NCBI GenBank assembly: GCA_025677825.1
Contig: JAIXMO010000025.1
Coordinates: 62,001 to 126,000 of the forward strand
Direction: 5' to 3'
From: Helicostylum pulchrum
Taxonomy: Eukaryota > Mucoromycota > Mucoromycetes > Mucorales > Mucoraceae
Length of the DNA: 64,000 nt
The notes beneath the pieces are model-generated. The model did no database searches. It saw nothing but the letters and a program-made list of their open reading frames with translations, and had not been told where the DNA came from. The first letter of the stretch is position 1; every line of letters starts with the position of its first letter. The translations under genes and the position numbers were made by a program. Of this stretch, positions 52,208 through 60,595 are shown one piece after another.

Positions 52208-53485
52208 CTACTTCTTTTTAAGCTTTTCATCTTCTACCTTGATACTTTCGATTTCAGAGATATATCTTCGGGAAAAGATTTCAATATAGTAATTAGCACC
52301 GTTCCAGACACTGACAGCAAACATGGACATCAAGAAGAAGGTATGTAAATAAAAGTTCTTGTATAAAAAGAAAGTTGGAATAGAAGTAACGATATTATAG
52401 ATCAATTGCAAGAACATAAACATCTCTGCCTTCCATTTCGCACCAAACATAAATGCAGTCTTTTGAATAAACCCTTTTTGACCGTGCGTATCATCCAACA
52501 ACCAAGAATAAGAAGTTAATCTCAAGCCAGATTCTACCTTATCTTTTCTTCCGACCATAATAAACAAATAGTAAAGCGATTGCCAGATAATGTATGCAGT
52601 AGTAGAGTATATCATGACTTGTTTAAAGGAGATATCGTCAATGTCTCCTAGTGCTGGAAATCGGGTGTTACGGTAAATTGTTACAAACGATTGATTATCA
52701 CAATATACATCCTTTTGTAGTTCTGGCATCCACCTGATACAGTAAGTGACTAAAGGAGGAAATATATGGATAAATACAGATGTCACCTTATCAAGTGAAT
52801 GAAAAACAAGCGAGTTTCTCCATGTGATAATAGCCCAAGCAACAGGACCATTTGTCATGCAGTAGGTAGCAATAAATAAAAACGTCGATGTTGGGAACAC
52901 CCATAAGAACAACATGGTCATACAATTGACGAAATAACAAATATCAAAGATAAAGTAATGCCACCTTTTGGATCGATAGATAACATAACGTAATATTAAC
53001 AGTACAACAAGTTGAATACTATAATAGTAGGGTATCGAGTTTGGATAGCGTACAGCAAGTGCAGGTGCTACACAAGCATTTCCAACACCAACCACAAATG
53101 ATACCTTATCTCGCAGTTGCACCGTTTTTGCGTCTCGGTTCATACGCTTATCAATTTTATGATACTGTTTCACCAAGAGTTCTTGAATACGTGAACGTTG
53201 ATCTTCTAATTTTTTAGTTTGCGTCTTTAACCTGTCTTTGGTTTTAGCGGTCCATTCTGTTGATTTGGCCAAGAATTCACGCTGCTTTTCATCCAGTTGA
53301 TTAGATACTTGGTCTAGTGCTGCTGATAACATATCAATCATATCAAAATCATTTTCTGATATAAACTCGGGGGTTGTCCATTCTTCCAAATCAAACATAT
53401 CCGTTTCATCTTTTGTTTGCGTCTCTTCTTCGGACGATGATGATTCTAGAAGAGGCGTAACTGACTGAACTTCTTCTTCTTTCAT
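52208..53485 (-). CDS. GPC1: Glycerophosphocholine acyltransferase GPC1-like (DUF2838)
   Basis: Single exon, 425 aa. Seen: an acidic N-terminus with a coiled coil (LDEKQREFLAKSTEW, KTQTKKLEDQRSRIQEL), then at least seven membrane helices, for example LVVLLILRYVIYR, CYFVNCMTMLFLWVF and MFMFLQLIYNIVTSI. The family block SLVFHSLDKVTSVFIHIFPP comes before CIRWM. Length and block order match Gpc1 of yeast. Known of the family: acylates glycerophosphocholine to lysophosphatidylcholine in phosphatidylcholine recycling, in the ER. The frame is open upstream to 53533, but the Met at 53485 gives the acidic start. Confidence 0.9.
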   Translation of the reverse strand: MKEEEVQSVTPLLESSSSEEETQTKDETDMFDLEEWTTPEFISENDFDMIDMLSAALDQVSNQLDEKQREFLAKSTEWTAKTKDRLKTQTKKLEDQRSRIQELLVKQYHKIDKRMNRDAKTVQLRDKVSFVVGVGNACVAPALAVRYPNSIPYYYSIQLVVLLILRYVIYRSKRWHYFIFDICYFVNCMTMLFLWVFPTSTFLFIATYCMTNGPVAWAIITWRNSLVFHSLDKVTSVFIHIFPPLVTYCIRWMPELQKDVYCDNQSFVTIYRNTRFPALGDIDDISFKQVMIYSTTAYIIWQSLYYLFIMVGRKDKVESGLRLTSYSWLLDDTHGQKGFIQKTAFMFGAKWKAEMFMFLQLIYNIVTSIPTFFLYKNFYLHTFFLMSMFAVSVWNGANYYIEIFSRRYISEIESIKVEDEKLKKK

Positions 53486-53834: not shown

Positions 53835-53842
53835 ATTTAGTT
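53835..53842. repeat. Target-site duplication, left copy (8 bp)
   Basis: The word atttagtt lies directly outside the left terminal inverted repeat that starts at 53843. An identical copy abuts the right end at 59890-59897, in direct orientation, as expected for duplication of the insertion site. Confidence 0.7.
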
Positions 53843-53871
53843 GAACCTCCTTATTTACCAAACAGTTAACG
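53843..53871 (+). repeat. Left terminal inverted repeat
   Basis: Reads gaacctccttatttacc, then aaacagttaacg. It matches the reverse complement of 59861-59889 at 23 of 28 aligned positions, including 11 contiguous bases (ccttatttacc). Confidence 0.65.
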
Positions 53872-55002
53872 AAAGTAAGGTGATTGGATGAAACGGAAGA
53901 TGACGTCAGTTTTAATTTCTTGGGGATTTTATGAGCTCCATCCTTACCTAATTAAAGGGGCGCAAGGGCCGAACGGTGTTGAAACCGCGGCTAATGAAAA
54001 TTTTCTAAGTTTCCTCGTTGTTATACGTCTTGATACGACAAATGGCAAAGTCCTTGTTCTAAATAAGTATATGTAAGTAAAGATGTATAGATAAGTGTTA
54101 TATTACATACCAATTAATCAGAGTCATTAGCCACTATGTGCTGGTTACAGCCATAATGAGTAAATCATCGTGATATATTGTTCTAAGAGAGTAGTTAAAA
54201 GTAAAAGTAAGATTAATTTAGATGGGCCTCGAGTTAAATACATAATATTTATATTTTGATACATCTTACCTGTACTAAAATCAAACATTATTTGTAGTCA
54301 ACGGAAACCATGTAACTACCAGAATAAAGGGACCACATATCGGAATAAGATTAAGTAGACGGCATTCTTGGGTAAATAGATAAATGAGCTGCGTTCGTAC
54401 TAAACCTTGGCATCAATAAAAACCTCTTGCCACCATTAAAAAACCTTTCAAGAGGAAAAAAATTAAGGGGTACAAGATGAAAAGATAACCAAAGAGTAGC
54501 ATCAGCTTGAAAATATAGAGGCAGCAGTTGTTACCAAAGACCATAAAAGATTACTAACTAGCAAGAATTTTAGCAGGCCTTCAATAAAGGTAAGTAACCT
54601 ATTGTAGGATTGATTTATTATAAATAAGGATAGATACTTTACCAAGAGGATATGTAGATCTATAACACCTAAGTAGATATTCGCTTTTCTTTTCAGCAAC
54701 CATCTTGATTACCAGAACAGTGTATTTCTATAAAATAAGTAAACTGAGTACCGTATATGAAAACTATGCTTTTCACTTATGAAACTTATACTTCCCTCTT
54801 TTTTCTCGGATAATGCAGATAAAAAAAAAAATAAAGAAAGAAAGAAAAAAGTTGGAAAAGAAATGGAAGGTATTTATAAGAACAATGAAAGTTTGATTTA
54901 TAGTTTGAGATGTCCTGATACACGAGTTTTTTCTTTTCTTATTTCAATCCTTTTATGAAAAAGTAGATTCAAAACAATACGTTAAGCTACAAAAATGAGG
55001 AT
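53872..55002. other. Left non-coding part of the element
   Basis: 1.13 kb between the left terminal repeat and the Fanzor start, with no supportable gene. The last few hundred bases, A-rich at 54822-54850, may hold the Fanzor promoter. Confidence 0.45.
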
Positions 55003-58000
55003 ATGTTGACACCCTCCATTCAAATATATTTGCGAAGAATTCTTCACGAAACGTTTTTGATGAATCAACTTCGAGATTTATTACAACAAACAACAAATTC
55101 ATTACAACAAGAACAAATCATTCCCAACCAGTATGAAAATTTATTGGATTTGCGCGCTCAAATACAAAACTATTTTACTGAAATAATTCCCACCAGCCAA
55201 CGATTAGACGAACTATTAGTAGAATTAAACAATAATATTAACAGTCAAGAAGGTCAACTTGAATATGAACAACAAAGAACGGCACAAGACAATCTAAGCT
55301 TACATATTCACTTGGTTTTACTTGACCTACATCCGCAATTTACAGACTTAAGAACTGTTACTGCTCGTGCTGCCGAAGCCGCAGAAAATGTCAAGACCAC
55401 TACTGAAGAACAGCTCACTGCTCTTTTTAACTCGGTAACTGAAAACCAACAAGCAGTCCTTCAAAATGCTAGAAATCTAAGGGATCTGGAACGTAAAATT
55501 TTAGCTTTGCGTGGGAAACTTGCAACTATTTTAAGAGAACAGCCATTAGAACAGGCAGATAACGTTCGCTTGAGAACTATCCGGCAAATCCAGATCGCAG
55601 TTCTATCTTCACAAGCAGCTTTACAAAGAATGAGAGAACAAGAGTTGCGAGACCAAGATTTCTTGAACCAAAACGAAATAGCACAAGAATATATCCGTAA
55701 CACGCAAATTCTATTACAAACGATTGATATTGCTGAAAATTTTACCAAAATTTTTCAAATTGTCGATTCTACCTTGCAGCAAATTATTTTGGCGTTAAGA
55801 GATCCTGAGTACAACTTCATTTTTCCGAGCGTTACCGACGAGACTTTTTGGTCTTACGTATATAGAAAGGTTTTAGCAGACCCTGAAAACGATAATCGGC
55901 GAATTGTAAGTGACAGTGTAGAAAAATTCCCATATACGCAGTATCTTAATATAGTTTTTTTTTTTTCAATTTTAGAATTTCAATAGGTCAATCGTATCAT
56001 ACTTTGATGACTTTGATGTTTCAAGAAAGGTTCCTGGCACAGATAATTATTTTTATAACTTACCAGTTGTAGACAATATACACAGGGGAATTTCTCATAG
56101 TTATACCAGTTCTATAATTCAAAGTGAGTTCGATATATACTTTATATATTTAGAGACACTAACTCTTATTTTATCTAGATGTCACAATGCATCTTCTTTC
56201 CATCAATTTATGGATGATTCATCTATTCAAAGGCTTCTTATTGTTTCATCAAAGACGAAATAATGTTCAAGTTCCTGTCATGACTATAGGTAAATATATA
56301 TATTCATATATATATATATATCGCACTCAATATCTTTGAATAATGACTTATATTTTTGATTTAATATAGCCAAGAAAGCCGCCAATAGAATTATCAACCA
56401 TCATCAATACGAAGATTTACAAATTGAACATGAAATACCTGGCCTTATAGATGTATACAATCGTATTAAATTAATATTTGACGCTGACTTTCGTGCTACT
56501 GAACCTGAAGATTTATTGGATTACGAAAGCGCCAAGGCACACCCTTTAAAGTATTTACGTGTGAGCTATCGTTTGCTCCAAGAAGCCTCACGTAACGTTG
56601 ATTGGCCGGTCAAACGTTGGTGTCTCCTTCCTTCCCCGTCGAGTCATCGAATTGTTCATTTTCCTCTTAATTCATATGTTACAATGTATGGTCTATTTGA
56701 AAAAGCCAATAATCGAAATATTCGCATACCGGATGATTTATTGGGTCGTAACGGTAATTTTATAGGCGTAACAGCTTTTCTTGATATTTATTCGGAAATT
56801 GCTAATAGACAGAGAATTTGGGAAACTCTGTTTAATATTAATAAGTTACAAAAACGGTGTTTAACGTACTTACAAGGAGAAAATAATGATCTTGATATTA
56901 ACGATCCTCTCCGAAGAGCAAAACTTGGTTTTGGTCTCACTACTGATGGCCACATGATTTCAGTTTTGTTTGAGCGAGTATCCAGGGAGCAAATACCATT
57001 TGATACGAAGGAAGTAAAGTTTCAGAAAAGAAATCTTAACTTGGCAAACAAGACCAGAGGTATATATCCATTGTATAAAAACCCAACTGGTATTACACCG
57101 CAGGACAGAATTATTGGAATTGACCCTGGTATGTTAAATATTAAAAGTATGAGTATAATAGACACTAATTTTTTTTTGCTAGGTGTTCGCGACATTGTTT
57201 GTGCCGTTGACTGTACACCTCAAGAATTGACTAACAAGTACACTACTAAGGAACACTCATTATCGATTAGTAACGCGTCGTATAAGTGAGTTTATTGTCA
57301 ATAACGTTAGTCACACAATAATTTTAATAGACTACTAAAAAAAAATTTAACCTACTAGGCTCCGTTCGGGTATGCAGTGGATTAATCAAAGAGAGCTACA
57401 AAGCCGTAATAAAGAGAGAATGCAAGATTCTTACGACCGCCTAAAAAGCTCAAAGGTTTCCAATACCTACCAAATTAGACAGTTCTTAAATTCTGTTTAT
57501 CAAGAACACAAAAAGTATAAGATAAAATAATTGTAATGGACGATAGAAAATTAACTCAATTATTTGATAAATATATAGGATATTTGACTTTATAAAATCC
57601 TATAAGCACAGGGAGAATAAGGGGCATAATTATTCAAATCGCCAAAGAGCTCAAGATCATGTAGCCCGAGTTATTCTTGGTACGACAAACAAGGAAGAAC
57701 CGTACAAACTCTCTCATGGTTCTTCTTCCTCACATCAACGAAAGATAAGAAAGAGATATCGCCGAACGATTATACGACGTTTCTCTCAAAATCCTCGTCC
57801 TTCGTATCCCCCTTCAATTAGGACTCCAGGTAATAATAATCAACGCACTGTTGTAGCATATGGTGATGCTTCCATTCGAAGCACCTATAAAGGCAACACT
57901 CTTATTCCAGTAAAGGTAAAAATTATGCGCAATGTAAATGTCTAGTATTTTTTATTTATCTTTTTCTATGTATAGGCGATACAAAGAGCAATTGCAACTA

Positions 58001-58651
58001 AAGTCCTTGTAATTCCAGTCGATGAATTCCGTACGTCTGTAACATATTCCCATTGTTTTGGAAGATTAGAAACGACACCTGATGAGCGTCTAGTTTGTAC
58101 ACACACGTAACATTATTCGTTCTTTATAAATAGTACAGCAAATTATAGTTCTTTATACTCATTTTTTTTAAATTTATAGAAAAAAACTACATCGTTCAAA
58201 CGGGCAAGATGGACACCCAGACGAAAAAAAAGCAGTACTAAAATGTTTTAATGAAGAAAACCACGTCTTGCATAAAACTAGTGAATGTCCTGAACGAGTT
58301 CTTCCAGATAAAGTCTATTTTTCACTTATTGGCGCTTACAATAAACTAGTGCCGATTTCGTTAACTTTTGTAGGACGACACCGTGACATTTATCCGCTGA
58401 AGCTGTGCCGGCAATGTCAAGCTGGAAATAACGCCGGCCCATTGGTACGTAATATAACCCTTTAGTTTAGGAATATATTTATACTTACACCAAATATATT
58501 TTCTTAGTATTGGAATAGAGACGTTAACGCTGCTTCCAACATCAGGCAAATCCTTACTGCGTATGTTGAACAAGGATTCGACCTGGAATCTAGACCGGAA
58601 CAACTGTCCAGAGGTATAAGGCAACAAGATGAAGACAATGAAGAAACTTAG
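55003..58651 (+). CDS. Fanzor: eukaryotic TnpB-like RuvC nuclease
   Basis: Nine exons: 55003-55905, 55976-56123, 56179-56289, 56370-57285, 57359-57514, 57579-57915, 57976-58106, 58180-58444 and 58508-58651. All junctions keep frame; about 1,036 aa. Residues 1-300 are Gln/Leu/Glu-rich helical text with no known domain. Seen in the C-terminal half: RuvC-I IIGIDPG with D639; VVAYGDAS (D841); the pre-zinc block VDEFRTS (E874), the likely displaced catalytic Glu of Fanzors; a zinc-ribbon part C977-x2-C980; and RuvC-III WNRDVNAASN with D994. Where TS-x2-C is usual there is TS-x2-Y881, so one zinc Cys is missing; C884 remains. Known: Fanzors are RNA-guided DNA endonucleases of eukaryotic transposons, using an omega-like RNA. 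A guide RNA was not identified here. Confidence 0.88.
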
Positions 58652-58666
58652 AGCCGTTTCAAAGAA

Positions 58667-58803
58667 TCTTTTCTTTTCTTTTCTTTTCTTTTCTTTTCTC
58701 TTTTCTCTTTTCTCTTTTCTTTTCTTTTCTTTTCTTTTCTTTTCTTTTCTTTTCTTTTCTTTTCTTTTCTTTTCTTTTCTTTTCTTTTCTTTTCTTTTCT
58801 TTC
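58667..58803. repeat. TTTTC pentanucleotide microsatellite
   Basis: About 27 tandem units of ttttc, with a few ctttt variants at 58698-58715, starting 15 bp after the Fanzor stop codon. It lies in the presumed Fanzor 3' UTR, where the associated guide RNA would be sought. Confidence 0.9.
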
Positions 58804-58854
58804 TTGTAAATAAAGGCTTCTCAAACCAAAAAATGCAGACTATTATTTCTCACT

Positions 58855-59777
58855 TCAGAACCTTCCACATGCTTTTATAAGTAGTCTCTCACATCTTATA
58901 TCGAGTATGTACATTAACAGGAATTCAATTCTTACTACTAGTAGTGATGATTTAATTAGAGCTTTAAATAAAGCACAATTGGTAACATCCTCAACAGTAA
59001 CAATCAACCTACTAACTGAAATTTTGAAACACAACGCAGATTGACTCCATAAAATAACTTTTTTTAACTGGGTCAACCAAAGTTTAACGGAATCTTTCGG
59101 ATCTTGTGCTTTTTTCTCTGTGGAGTGCACCATCTGATCACGGTGAACGATAACTTGAGCTTTGTTACCAAGAGATTGCTCTACATCGATATTAAAGTTG
59201 GCTTGACTATGACGAAGAAAATTGTTTTGAATTGAAATTCTGGTGTCTCTCTTTCTGAATCCTTTGCATAATATTTGCTCATTCAACTGTTTAGCTACTT
59301 GTGACAATGGAAGAAACTTCGGGTCCTCAAGCCCAGCAATCTGATGATTATGGTTACCACTGTGATACAAGACAACGTTATTAGGATCGCTTTTATAACA
59401 GGTAGCTACCAAACTAGTTAGCAGTACATTCAATTTTTTGTTACTTTGTTTTGTAACTTTCTAGACCCTTCGCTGCTATTGTTTTGCTCTGTTTTAGCGT
59501 GCCTCTTTTCACCGGAATGATGACAAAAGTAATAAGTTTTGAAAACGTAATCAATATAGCGGGTTCTGGGCTTAGGACCTTTGGTGGCATTTAATCGCTG
59601 AGCTTGTGCCCTCTCTTGCTCCTCTGCGGTTCTAGTTGTGCCTTTCACAAATCTGACACCGTGGAGGGGAATATAGTCTGCTACCGCTTTCTCCCAATTG
59701 GTCAAAGATACGGTAAGTCTCTCTGAAATGAGCGTATAACAAATGATATTAATAGATGTAGCGTTATTACTTGACAC
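58855..59777 (-). pseudogene. Mutator-like (MULE) transposase fragment, frameshifted
   Basis: Two overlapping minus-strand frames. The first (59430-59777) reads WEKAVADYIPLHGVRFVKG and later YFCHHSGEKRHAK, the FAR1/FLYWCH-type DNA-binding start of MULE transposases. It ends at a stop. The second (58855-59433) continues with ATCYKSDPNNVVLYHSG, NHNH and FRKRDTRISIQNNFLRHSQ, the usual next block. A frameshift at about 59430 separates them. Beyond WLTQLKK no transposase pattern is visible and the DDE core is missing. The first frame has no ATG and begins just after a plausible splice acceptor (tttaaacag), so any first exon is lost or was not found. Confidence 0.65.
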
Positions 59778-59860
59778 TGTTTAAAATAAAAAGATTTGAT
59801 ATCATTAAAGTGAAAAGACTAAAATATGATTTTATTTTATTTTATTTATTTTCAAAAACC

Positions 59861-59889
59861 GCTTATCTGTTAGGTAAATAAGGGCGTTC
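59861..59889 (-). repeat. Right terminal inverted repeat
   Basis: On the minus strand it reads gaacgcccttatttacc, then taacagataagc, matching the left repeat as described there. Confidence 0.65.
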
Positions 59890-59897
59890 ATTTAGTT
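59890..59897. repeat. Target-site duplication, right copy (8 bp)
   Basis: The word atttagtt, identical to 53835-53842 and directly outside the right terminal repeat. Confidence 0.7.
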
Positions 59898-60154
59898 ACG
59901 TGATGTCATGATAACAAATTGACGGATCGGCGCAAAATATTTAAAAAACAGACTTATTTCAAACTGAAATATATAATGAACAAATAGGGGAATATTTACT
60001 TTTTTTTTGACCGTATATATACTCTAATTTATACTTGTAATTTTTTTTATAAAAAAAAAGAAAAGGGATGCTGTTTTTTGACTTGCAAATAGAATGACTG
60101 AAAAGATGAAAGGTAAAGATAAAAGCACGTGTATAAATAATATCACCCTCTAAT

Positions 60155-60595
60155 ATGTACATTATGCGAGTAGATCAATCTAAATTAACTGTCAATAAAA
60201 AAGGACCTTTCACGCCTATAGAAGCAGGGTCTCCGAAATTAGATATACCAGCACCAATACAACAACAACAAGAACAAGAACAGCAAGAAACGGGTCCTAT
60301 GGTCCAAATGGGTGGCGGTTTACCTGATTTACCTGCTAGACCAACAGCACCCGTACGTCAAACATCTGCTGCTGCTTCTGCTTCGGGGTTTGATTCAATT
60401 CCTCAACGTGTGCCCAATGTAAAGCAAGCAATTGAACCGCAACTCAGTATACCTTCCGGTAGTGATTTAGGTGCAGTTGGTAAAATAGGCGTATATCAAA
60501 TGCAACATACATCTTCTGCAGCACATGTTCATGCAAATATATTATTTTATACTATATTTATTTTTGTAACTTTTATTTTAATAAAAAGAAGATGA
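60155..60595 (+). CDS. Small tail-anchored protein, unidentified
   Basis: 146 aa, single exon. Seen: a polar Gln/Pro/Ala-rich cytosolic part (IQQQQEQEQQETGP, LPDLPARPTAPV) and a single hydrophobic helix at the very C-terminus (ILFYTIFIFVTFILI) followed by KRR. A lone membrane helix with a short basic tail is the layout of tail-anchored ER or mitochondrial outer-membrane proteins inserted post-translationally. No family recognised. It converges with the aldolase gene, whose stop is 27 bp from its own. A second ATG four codons downstream may also serve as start. Confidence 0.6.
   Translation: MYIMRVDQSKLTVNKKGPFTPIEAGSPKLDIPAPIQQQQEQEQQETGPMVQMGGGLPDLPARPTAPVRQTSAAASASGFDSIPQRVPNVKQAIEPQLSIPSGSDLGAVGKIGVYQMQHTSSAAHVHANILFYTIFIFVTFILIKRR

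Follow-up and report, generated by a model that had tools for sequence, protein, structure and literature searches.

A rearranged Mutator-like element with Fanzor1 cargo in Helicostylum pulchrum and its probable insertion at a fixed distance from CRE-like sites

What kind of mobile unit carries a Fanzor nuclease gene into the space between two host open reading frames (ORFs) of the fungus Helicostylum pulchrum (Mucorales), what moves it, and what decides where it lands? These questions are raised by a segment at positions 53843-59889 of a 64,000-nucleotide stretch of genomic DNA (the window), which lies on the contig designated C87 in our searches. Fanzors are cargo of many eukaryotic transposons. 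We conclude that the segment is very probably a non-autonomous, rearranged Mutator-like element (MULE) with Fanzor1 cargo, one of a group of copies (type A) presumably moved by the transposase of a sister group (type B), and that its right end was probably inserted at a fixed spacing from a site resembling TGACGTCA, which we take to be the cyclic AMP response element (CRE) bound by ATF/CREB and other basic leucine zipper (bZIP) proteins. A wider reading is offered more tentatively, as one that may well need revision: that both MULE transposase and Fanzor1 belong to one cut-and-paste family that inserts with fixed orientation and spacing beside the CRE, and that targeting of the family's own left end would explain a set of 77-bp left-end stubs.

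The ends of the element were located as the first-pass annotation had proposed. The termini at 53843 and 59889 form terminal inverted repeats (TIRs), the left at 53843-53870 on the plus strand (beginning GAACCTCCTTATTTACCAAACAG) and the right at 59862-59889 on the minus strand (reverse complement, beginning GAACGCCCTTATTTACCTAACAG), in which 23 of 28 bp are paired; a separate repeat search gave 86% over 53842-53869/59863-59890, and an end-pattern search recovered both. An identical 8-bp target-site duplication (TSD), atttagtt, adjoins the two ends at 53835-53842 and 59890-59897, again as proposed. The judgement that such an arrangement is unlikely by chance held when the genome (32,194,346 bases, or 32.2 Mb, in 168 contigs) was searched with up to three mismatches tolerated: the search located 33 ends of this pattern, against none for a reversed-pattern control, so that the lack of any other copy with these ends, named by the annotation as a sign against insertion, is not what we see. 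No paralogous empty site was found in the genome, where a query made of the joined flanks matched solely the window's own two flanks. For MULEs, TSDs of 8-11 bp beside TIRs are given in the available text of PMC6446971, and the 8-bp TSDs of the window and of the copy on contig C139 lie within that range. When the 8-mers beside 13 left and 20 right ends were paired, three pairs agreed at 8 of 8 positions (window, C139 and a cross pair between C32 and C132), whereas shuffling the bases of the left 8-mers 2000 times gave a mean of 0.156 and a maximum of 2 exact pairs. On contig C90, three right-type ends lie within 4 kb (380852 and 384732-384844), and two of these form a tandem pair with a distance of 90 bp.

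Two groups of copies share these ends. Long stretches of the element interior are repeated at about 98% identity on four further contigs (C116, C166, C139 and C83), which together with the window make up type A; the copies on C116 and C166 reach contig ends, and in that on C83 the central part of the Fanzor gene is missing. Type B comprises the copies on C138, C32, C108 and C115 and two copies on C94. The left arm (53843-55002 in the window, where it lacks a former Fanzor exon) is 84-98% identical across both groups; among type B copies its identity to the window is 94-98% for C138, C115 and C94 and 84-85% for C32 and C108. About 46 bp of the type B right end are held in common with the window, at 89-93%. 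Between these ends, type B carries a transposase gene on the plus strand, the same strand as a related Fanzor, which on C138, C32, C108 and C115 shows 66-76% similarity in most of the pieces that align. Of the two copies on C94, the first retains only the later part of that Fanzor and the second has none.

The transposase distinguishes the two groups most clearly. What the first-pass annotation called a decayed MULE transposase is indeed a remnant without its catalytic core, at 58858-59780 on the minus strand (apparently the public EDC94DRAFT_649420, 295 aa). It is not the product of simple decay, however: the N-terminal half that survives lies in the opposite orientation to its type B counterpart. 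The match of the remnant to a type B piece of 336 residues is confined to residues 1-145, and the MULE domain PF10551 was not found in the remnant with Pfam. Since five contigs share the inverted arrangement, the rearranged type A form itself seems to have spread. The MULE domain is present in both type B copies scanned (28.8 bits on C32 and 34.5 on C108, cutoff 27.6), as is a SWIM domain (19.9 and 20.0 bits, cutoff 19.6). The type B transposase has 50 homologues, of which the named ones are nearly all from Mucorales and one is from Entomortierella. Another H. pulchrum assembly contributes P0014, a gene model of 653 residues that contains PF10551. Type A copies presumably moved with transposase supplied in trans by type B. 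The proposal that a Mutator-like element mobilised a Fanzor and then lost its own transposase core thus stands in part: a MULE does carry the Fanzor, the core is missing here, and sister copies keep a MULE-domain transposase, but the Fanzor is not intact and the account of the loss is incomplete.

The cargo is a Fanzor-like RuvC gene, as had been noted, although its description as intact and full-length does not hold: its first exons are lost and a zinc-finger cysteine has become tyrosine. The truncated gene runs from 55003 to 58651 on the plus strand in ten exons (55003-55905, 55976-56123, 56179-56289, 56370-57128, 57183-57285, 57359-57514, 57579-57915, 57976-58106, 58180-58444 and 58508-58651), with nine GT-AG introns set by eye; 1018 aa are left, the first few of them encoded by former left-arm DNA, and the frame is otherwise open. 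Relative to C139, 846 bp have been lost at 55018 between two copies of ATTC (junction at 55018-55021), taking the first exons and 114 residues in the numbering of P0001. The protein P0004, from the other H. pulchrum assembly, starts across the same junction, and the deletion is therefore no slip of the window's assembly. The site of the first finger cysteine reads VTYSHC in the window and VTCSHC on C116, C166, C139 and C83; the gene family has a four-cysteine finger, which the window copy alone lacks. The Fanzor of the window copy is probably dead, and that of intact relatives would, by analogy with other Fanzors, act in RNA-guided cutting.

Assignment of this gene to Fanzor1 draws on homologues, motifs and structure. 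Thirteen homologues were found, all in Mucorales fungi (Helicostylum, Mucor, Rhizopus, Benjaminiella and Cunninghamella are genera of that order); P0001, P0002 and P0013 have a precomputed PF07282 annotation, and P0003, from Mucor, is a relative at 45% identity. A profile of 11 relatives matches the Spizellomyces punctatus Fanzor (SpuFz) structure 8gkh with E 5.9e-4, the best of 8, and a Foldseek search with a model of P0003 gave 460 matches at E <= 10, of which only 4 reached E <= 0.001, all SpuFz; similarity to a solved Fanzor1 is thus seen both by profile and in the top four fold matches, the latter from a low-confidence model. In the profile alignment, TDG lies opposite the SpuFz TDG in a significant stretch, and DEFRTS lies opposite LLDEYKTS in a stretch that scores -0.7 bits alone. 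The Fanzor1 motif D-X(125-275)-[TS][TS]-X-X-zinc finger-X(5-50)-RD, as given in the available text of PMC3627910, can be read in the window protein, with 219 residues from D639 to TS859 and with RD975 lying 12 residues past the last finger cysteine (962). The alternative RuvC glutamate and the TDG of the WED domain, described in the accessible part of PMC10711439, are likewise found (E856 in DEFRTS; TDG579), so that the catalytic aspartate, the alternative glutamate and the second aspartate are all present. Pfam searches with single Fanzor exons gave nothing over cutoff, and PADLOC gave no match for the three exons submitted.

We next consider the flanks, which bear on target choice. From the ends described above we assembled 18 right flanks (one duplicate flank and one left-like end set aside) and 14 left flanks (C83 added); a second end pattern also returned 33 ends and no new right ends. 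TGAC occurs at offset 15 in 8 of the 18 right flanks, whereas in 1000 dinucleotide shuffles no 4-mer at a given offset between 0 and 49 was present in more than 5 flanks. TGACRT lying 13 bp out, or the other half site in the same register, is found beside 10/18 unique right ends, or 12/18 with 1 bp of slack, and beside none of the 14 left ends (Fisher, 1.3e-3 in exact register and 1.1e-4 with slack). Binomial figures for the motif are inflated because it was chosen on these data, and the shuffle test and the right/left contrast are the fair tests. A joint search for motif plus right end gave 10 matches, two of them with the same flank, and none for the control. In the window the half site is TGACAT on the minus strand at 59903-59908, 13 bp outside the right end and beyond the TSD.

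The same motif recurs inside the element at its other end. A CRE-like palindrome, TGACGTCA, lies at 53901-53908 (plus strand; element positions 59-66), and TGACGT or TGACGC is present at position 59 in 12 of the 13 left ends scanned, all except that of C108. By comparison, TGACGT, TGACGC or ACGTCA falls within the first 120 bp of just one right end in 19, the left-like end C132b that had been set aside. On C166, the right end of another copy is joined exactly 13 bp past a left-end TGACGT, at element position 77 (53919 in the window). Lone left ends break at or near this point: C102 and C125 cease to match at position 77, C93 and C123 one base further on, by a T, and C57 at 83. Such stubs may be, at a guess, the remains of self-insertion into the left end; their far sides were searched for other element DNA over about 0.3 kb (C125) to about 3.9 kb (C93). 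We also considered the solo left ends as 77-bp mini-elements and rejected this, since by eye the 8 bp on their two sides differ.

Several observations weigh against this overall interpretation. An exact TSD is present in just 2 of the 7 two-ended copies (window and C139); that of C108 would match only if one A were dropped from an A run, and there is no match in C138, C32, C94b or C83. The left flank of C32 pairs instead at 8 of 8 positions with a right flank located where contig C132 begins, and C115 and C138 have one right flank in common, which together suggest misjoined contigs or recombination between copies at the repeat. The CRE-like motif was picked from and then tested on the same flanks, with no further right ends for a hold-out, and it is missing from 6 of the 18 right flanks even with 1 bp of slack (C32, C84a, one of those on C90, C94a, C94b and C139). 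Among these, C139 has a perfect TSD and no motif, C84a has TGACGT 17 bp out and C32 has TGACGC 15 bp out. All six type B copies read have a transposase that is broken up over at least two frames (introns not modelled), so present-day activity cannot be claimed for any of them. As a single query, the window Fanzor matches no solved Fanzor; PF07282 falls below its curated 26.3-bit cutoff in the three relatives scanned (25.5 for P0001, 20.0 and 24.7); and the predicted structure used for the fold search is of poor quality (mean pLDDT 56, pTM 0.35). Finally, no ωRNA was found: predicted folding at both ends, in the window and in C138, did not exceed that of shuffled sequence (z-scores -0.20, -0.15, -0.17 and 1.28).

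Fifteen of the 16 Rfam matches, in the C139 copy (L011), lie on or around a perfect 88-bp palindrome with 44-bp arms and were set aside as hairpin artefacts; the sixteenth is weak and lies outside the element, in L013. The palindrome occupies element positions 1246-1333 near the Fanzor start exon; none like it was present at positions 1100-1500 of C138, C32 or C108, and C116 and C166 have a gap there. A left-arm module at about 585-967 was considered as a Fanzor RNA gene and rejected: its other relatives, on nine contigs, do not coincide with Fanzor matches (46 of 96 candidates scored). These noncoding relatives, 67-83% alike, lie away from the Fanzor matches found (C94:237728-238182, C104, C46, C98, C10, C108:84k, C103, C113 and C81); L063 was the one read.

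Could the motif be enriched for some other reason? The element may insert generally near promoters, which might be CRE-rich, with no direct recognition of the motif, and the window insertion does lie between divergent ORFs, 358 bp and 266 bp (by hand) from their predicted starts. We consider this unlikely, since a promoter bias gives neither a fixed register nor a preference for one side, and the motif stands in one register at 10 of 18 right ends and at 0 of 14 left ends. It is slightly more doubtful that the motif is part of the element, as a longer and variable right end, and not of the target. The left end does hold the same TGACGTCA internally, and on C166 the motif beside the right end is that of one of the family's left ends, but in the window the motif is found outside the TSD, which itself adjoins the right end, and the same is true of the C32/C132 cross pair, and the 13 bp between motif and end, like the sequence before the motif, vary among copies. 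More improbable again is the view that the type A copies arose by segmental duplication from a single rearranged element and have not transposed since the rearrangement: their transposase remnants lack a catalytic domain, and C116 and C166 reach contig ends at the same point, yet the window and C139 differ in their exact TSDs and in their flanks. That Fanzor and not the transposase sets the site is least probable of all, for although Fanzors cut beside a target-adjacent motif (TAM), and guide RNAs of insect-virus Fanzor1 extend about 15 nt past the TSD in the available text of PMC10711439, so that guides read from right flanks would contain the CRE and guides or TAM could explain both the motif and the breaks at position 77, the 13 bp from motif to junction vary among copies, unlike cutting with one guide, and no guide RNA or scaffold was found by Rfam or by end folding.

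Oriented, CRE-guided insertion by the MULE transposase, as we infer it from the flanks, could work as follows. Insertion would place the right end at a constant distance from a site like TGACGTCA, with the centre of the CRE about 15 bp away. Either the transposase or a transposase-bound bZIP protein might occupy the TGACGTCA in the left end; the right end usually lacks a CRE, which would leave the same surface free to grip a target CRE. Such a gripping model is prompted by the asymmetry of the sites, with a CRE inside the left end, rarely one in the right end, and a CRE in the target DNA next to the right end. The CRE that the left end carries could also serve as a target, as the C166 junction suggests, and self-insertion there would yield left-end stubs.

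A factor of the ATF/CREB type, Atf1, offers a partial parallel in fission yeast. The retrotransposon Tf1, which Atf1 directs, also integrates near sites that Atf1 binds (PMC7175516), but it is a long terminal repeat element with a different enzyme, and the available text of that source mentions neither a fixed 13-bp register nor a one-sided orientation. Closest in content are the MuDr-like elements with Fanzor1 (ROr-4, PBl-3 and MCi-4) reported from Rhizopus, Phycomyces and Mucor by Bao and Jurka 2013, which in the accessible text lack a MuDr transposase and have 9-bp TSDs (PMC3627910). The H. pulchrum elements resemble these in their Fanzor1 cargo, MuDr-type terminal repeats and Mucorales host, and in the window copy by the lack of a catalytic transposase; they differ in that sister copies have a MULE-domain transposase beside the Fanzor and in a TSD of 8 bp instead of 9. 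The MULE-Mucorales group, as described in the part of PMC6446971 available, shares a Mucoromycota host, a SWIM zinc finger in the transposase and TIRs of tens of bp, but has a 10-bp TSD, a 40-bp TIR and one ORF, whereas the H. pulchrum family has 8 bp, about 28 bp and a Fanzor in addition. SpuFz1 (PDB 8gkh, 9ceu series) resembles the Fanzor in the profile match, which spans the TDG region and the start of RuvC, in being the best fold match and in an alternative glutamate before the zinc finger; on the side of difference, identity in the structure alignment is about 14%, and a weak model of P0003, from Mucor, predicts some 290 helical residues at its N terminus.

Our literature searches (titles and abstracts, open access) found no TGACGT target rule for MULEs and no paper joining Helicostylum pulchrum with transposable elements, and in titles and abstracts none besides Bao and Jurka 2013 joined Fanzor with MuDr elements. 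Fanzor1 in Mucorales MuDr elements is already known; as far as this search shows, what is new is that a transposase accompanies the Fanzor, together with the proposed rule of oriented insertion at a CRE. The 2013 cases, having no mover, put cooperation between nuclease and transposase beyond study, and the H. pulchrum family holds both, with recent copies. If true, the CRE-side rule would mean that a eukaryotic DNA transposon selects its targets with unusual precision and in a set orientation.

The remaining features of the locus are minor. A (TCTTT)n microsatellite of 27 copies lies 3' of the Fanzor stop at 58667-58802. The divergent host ORFs that flank the element, at 52208-53485 (a DUF2838 protein, Pfam E 5.2e-43) and 60155-60595 (a small ORF), would share an upstream region of about 620 bp if the element were absent. 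Further Fanzor-like genes or fragments lie outside the main copies, at C130:58421-61860, C156:34838, C123:161k, C108:85-639 and C79:248833 and on C154, C1, C24 and C158.

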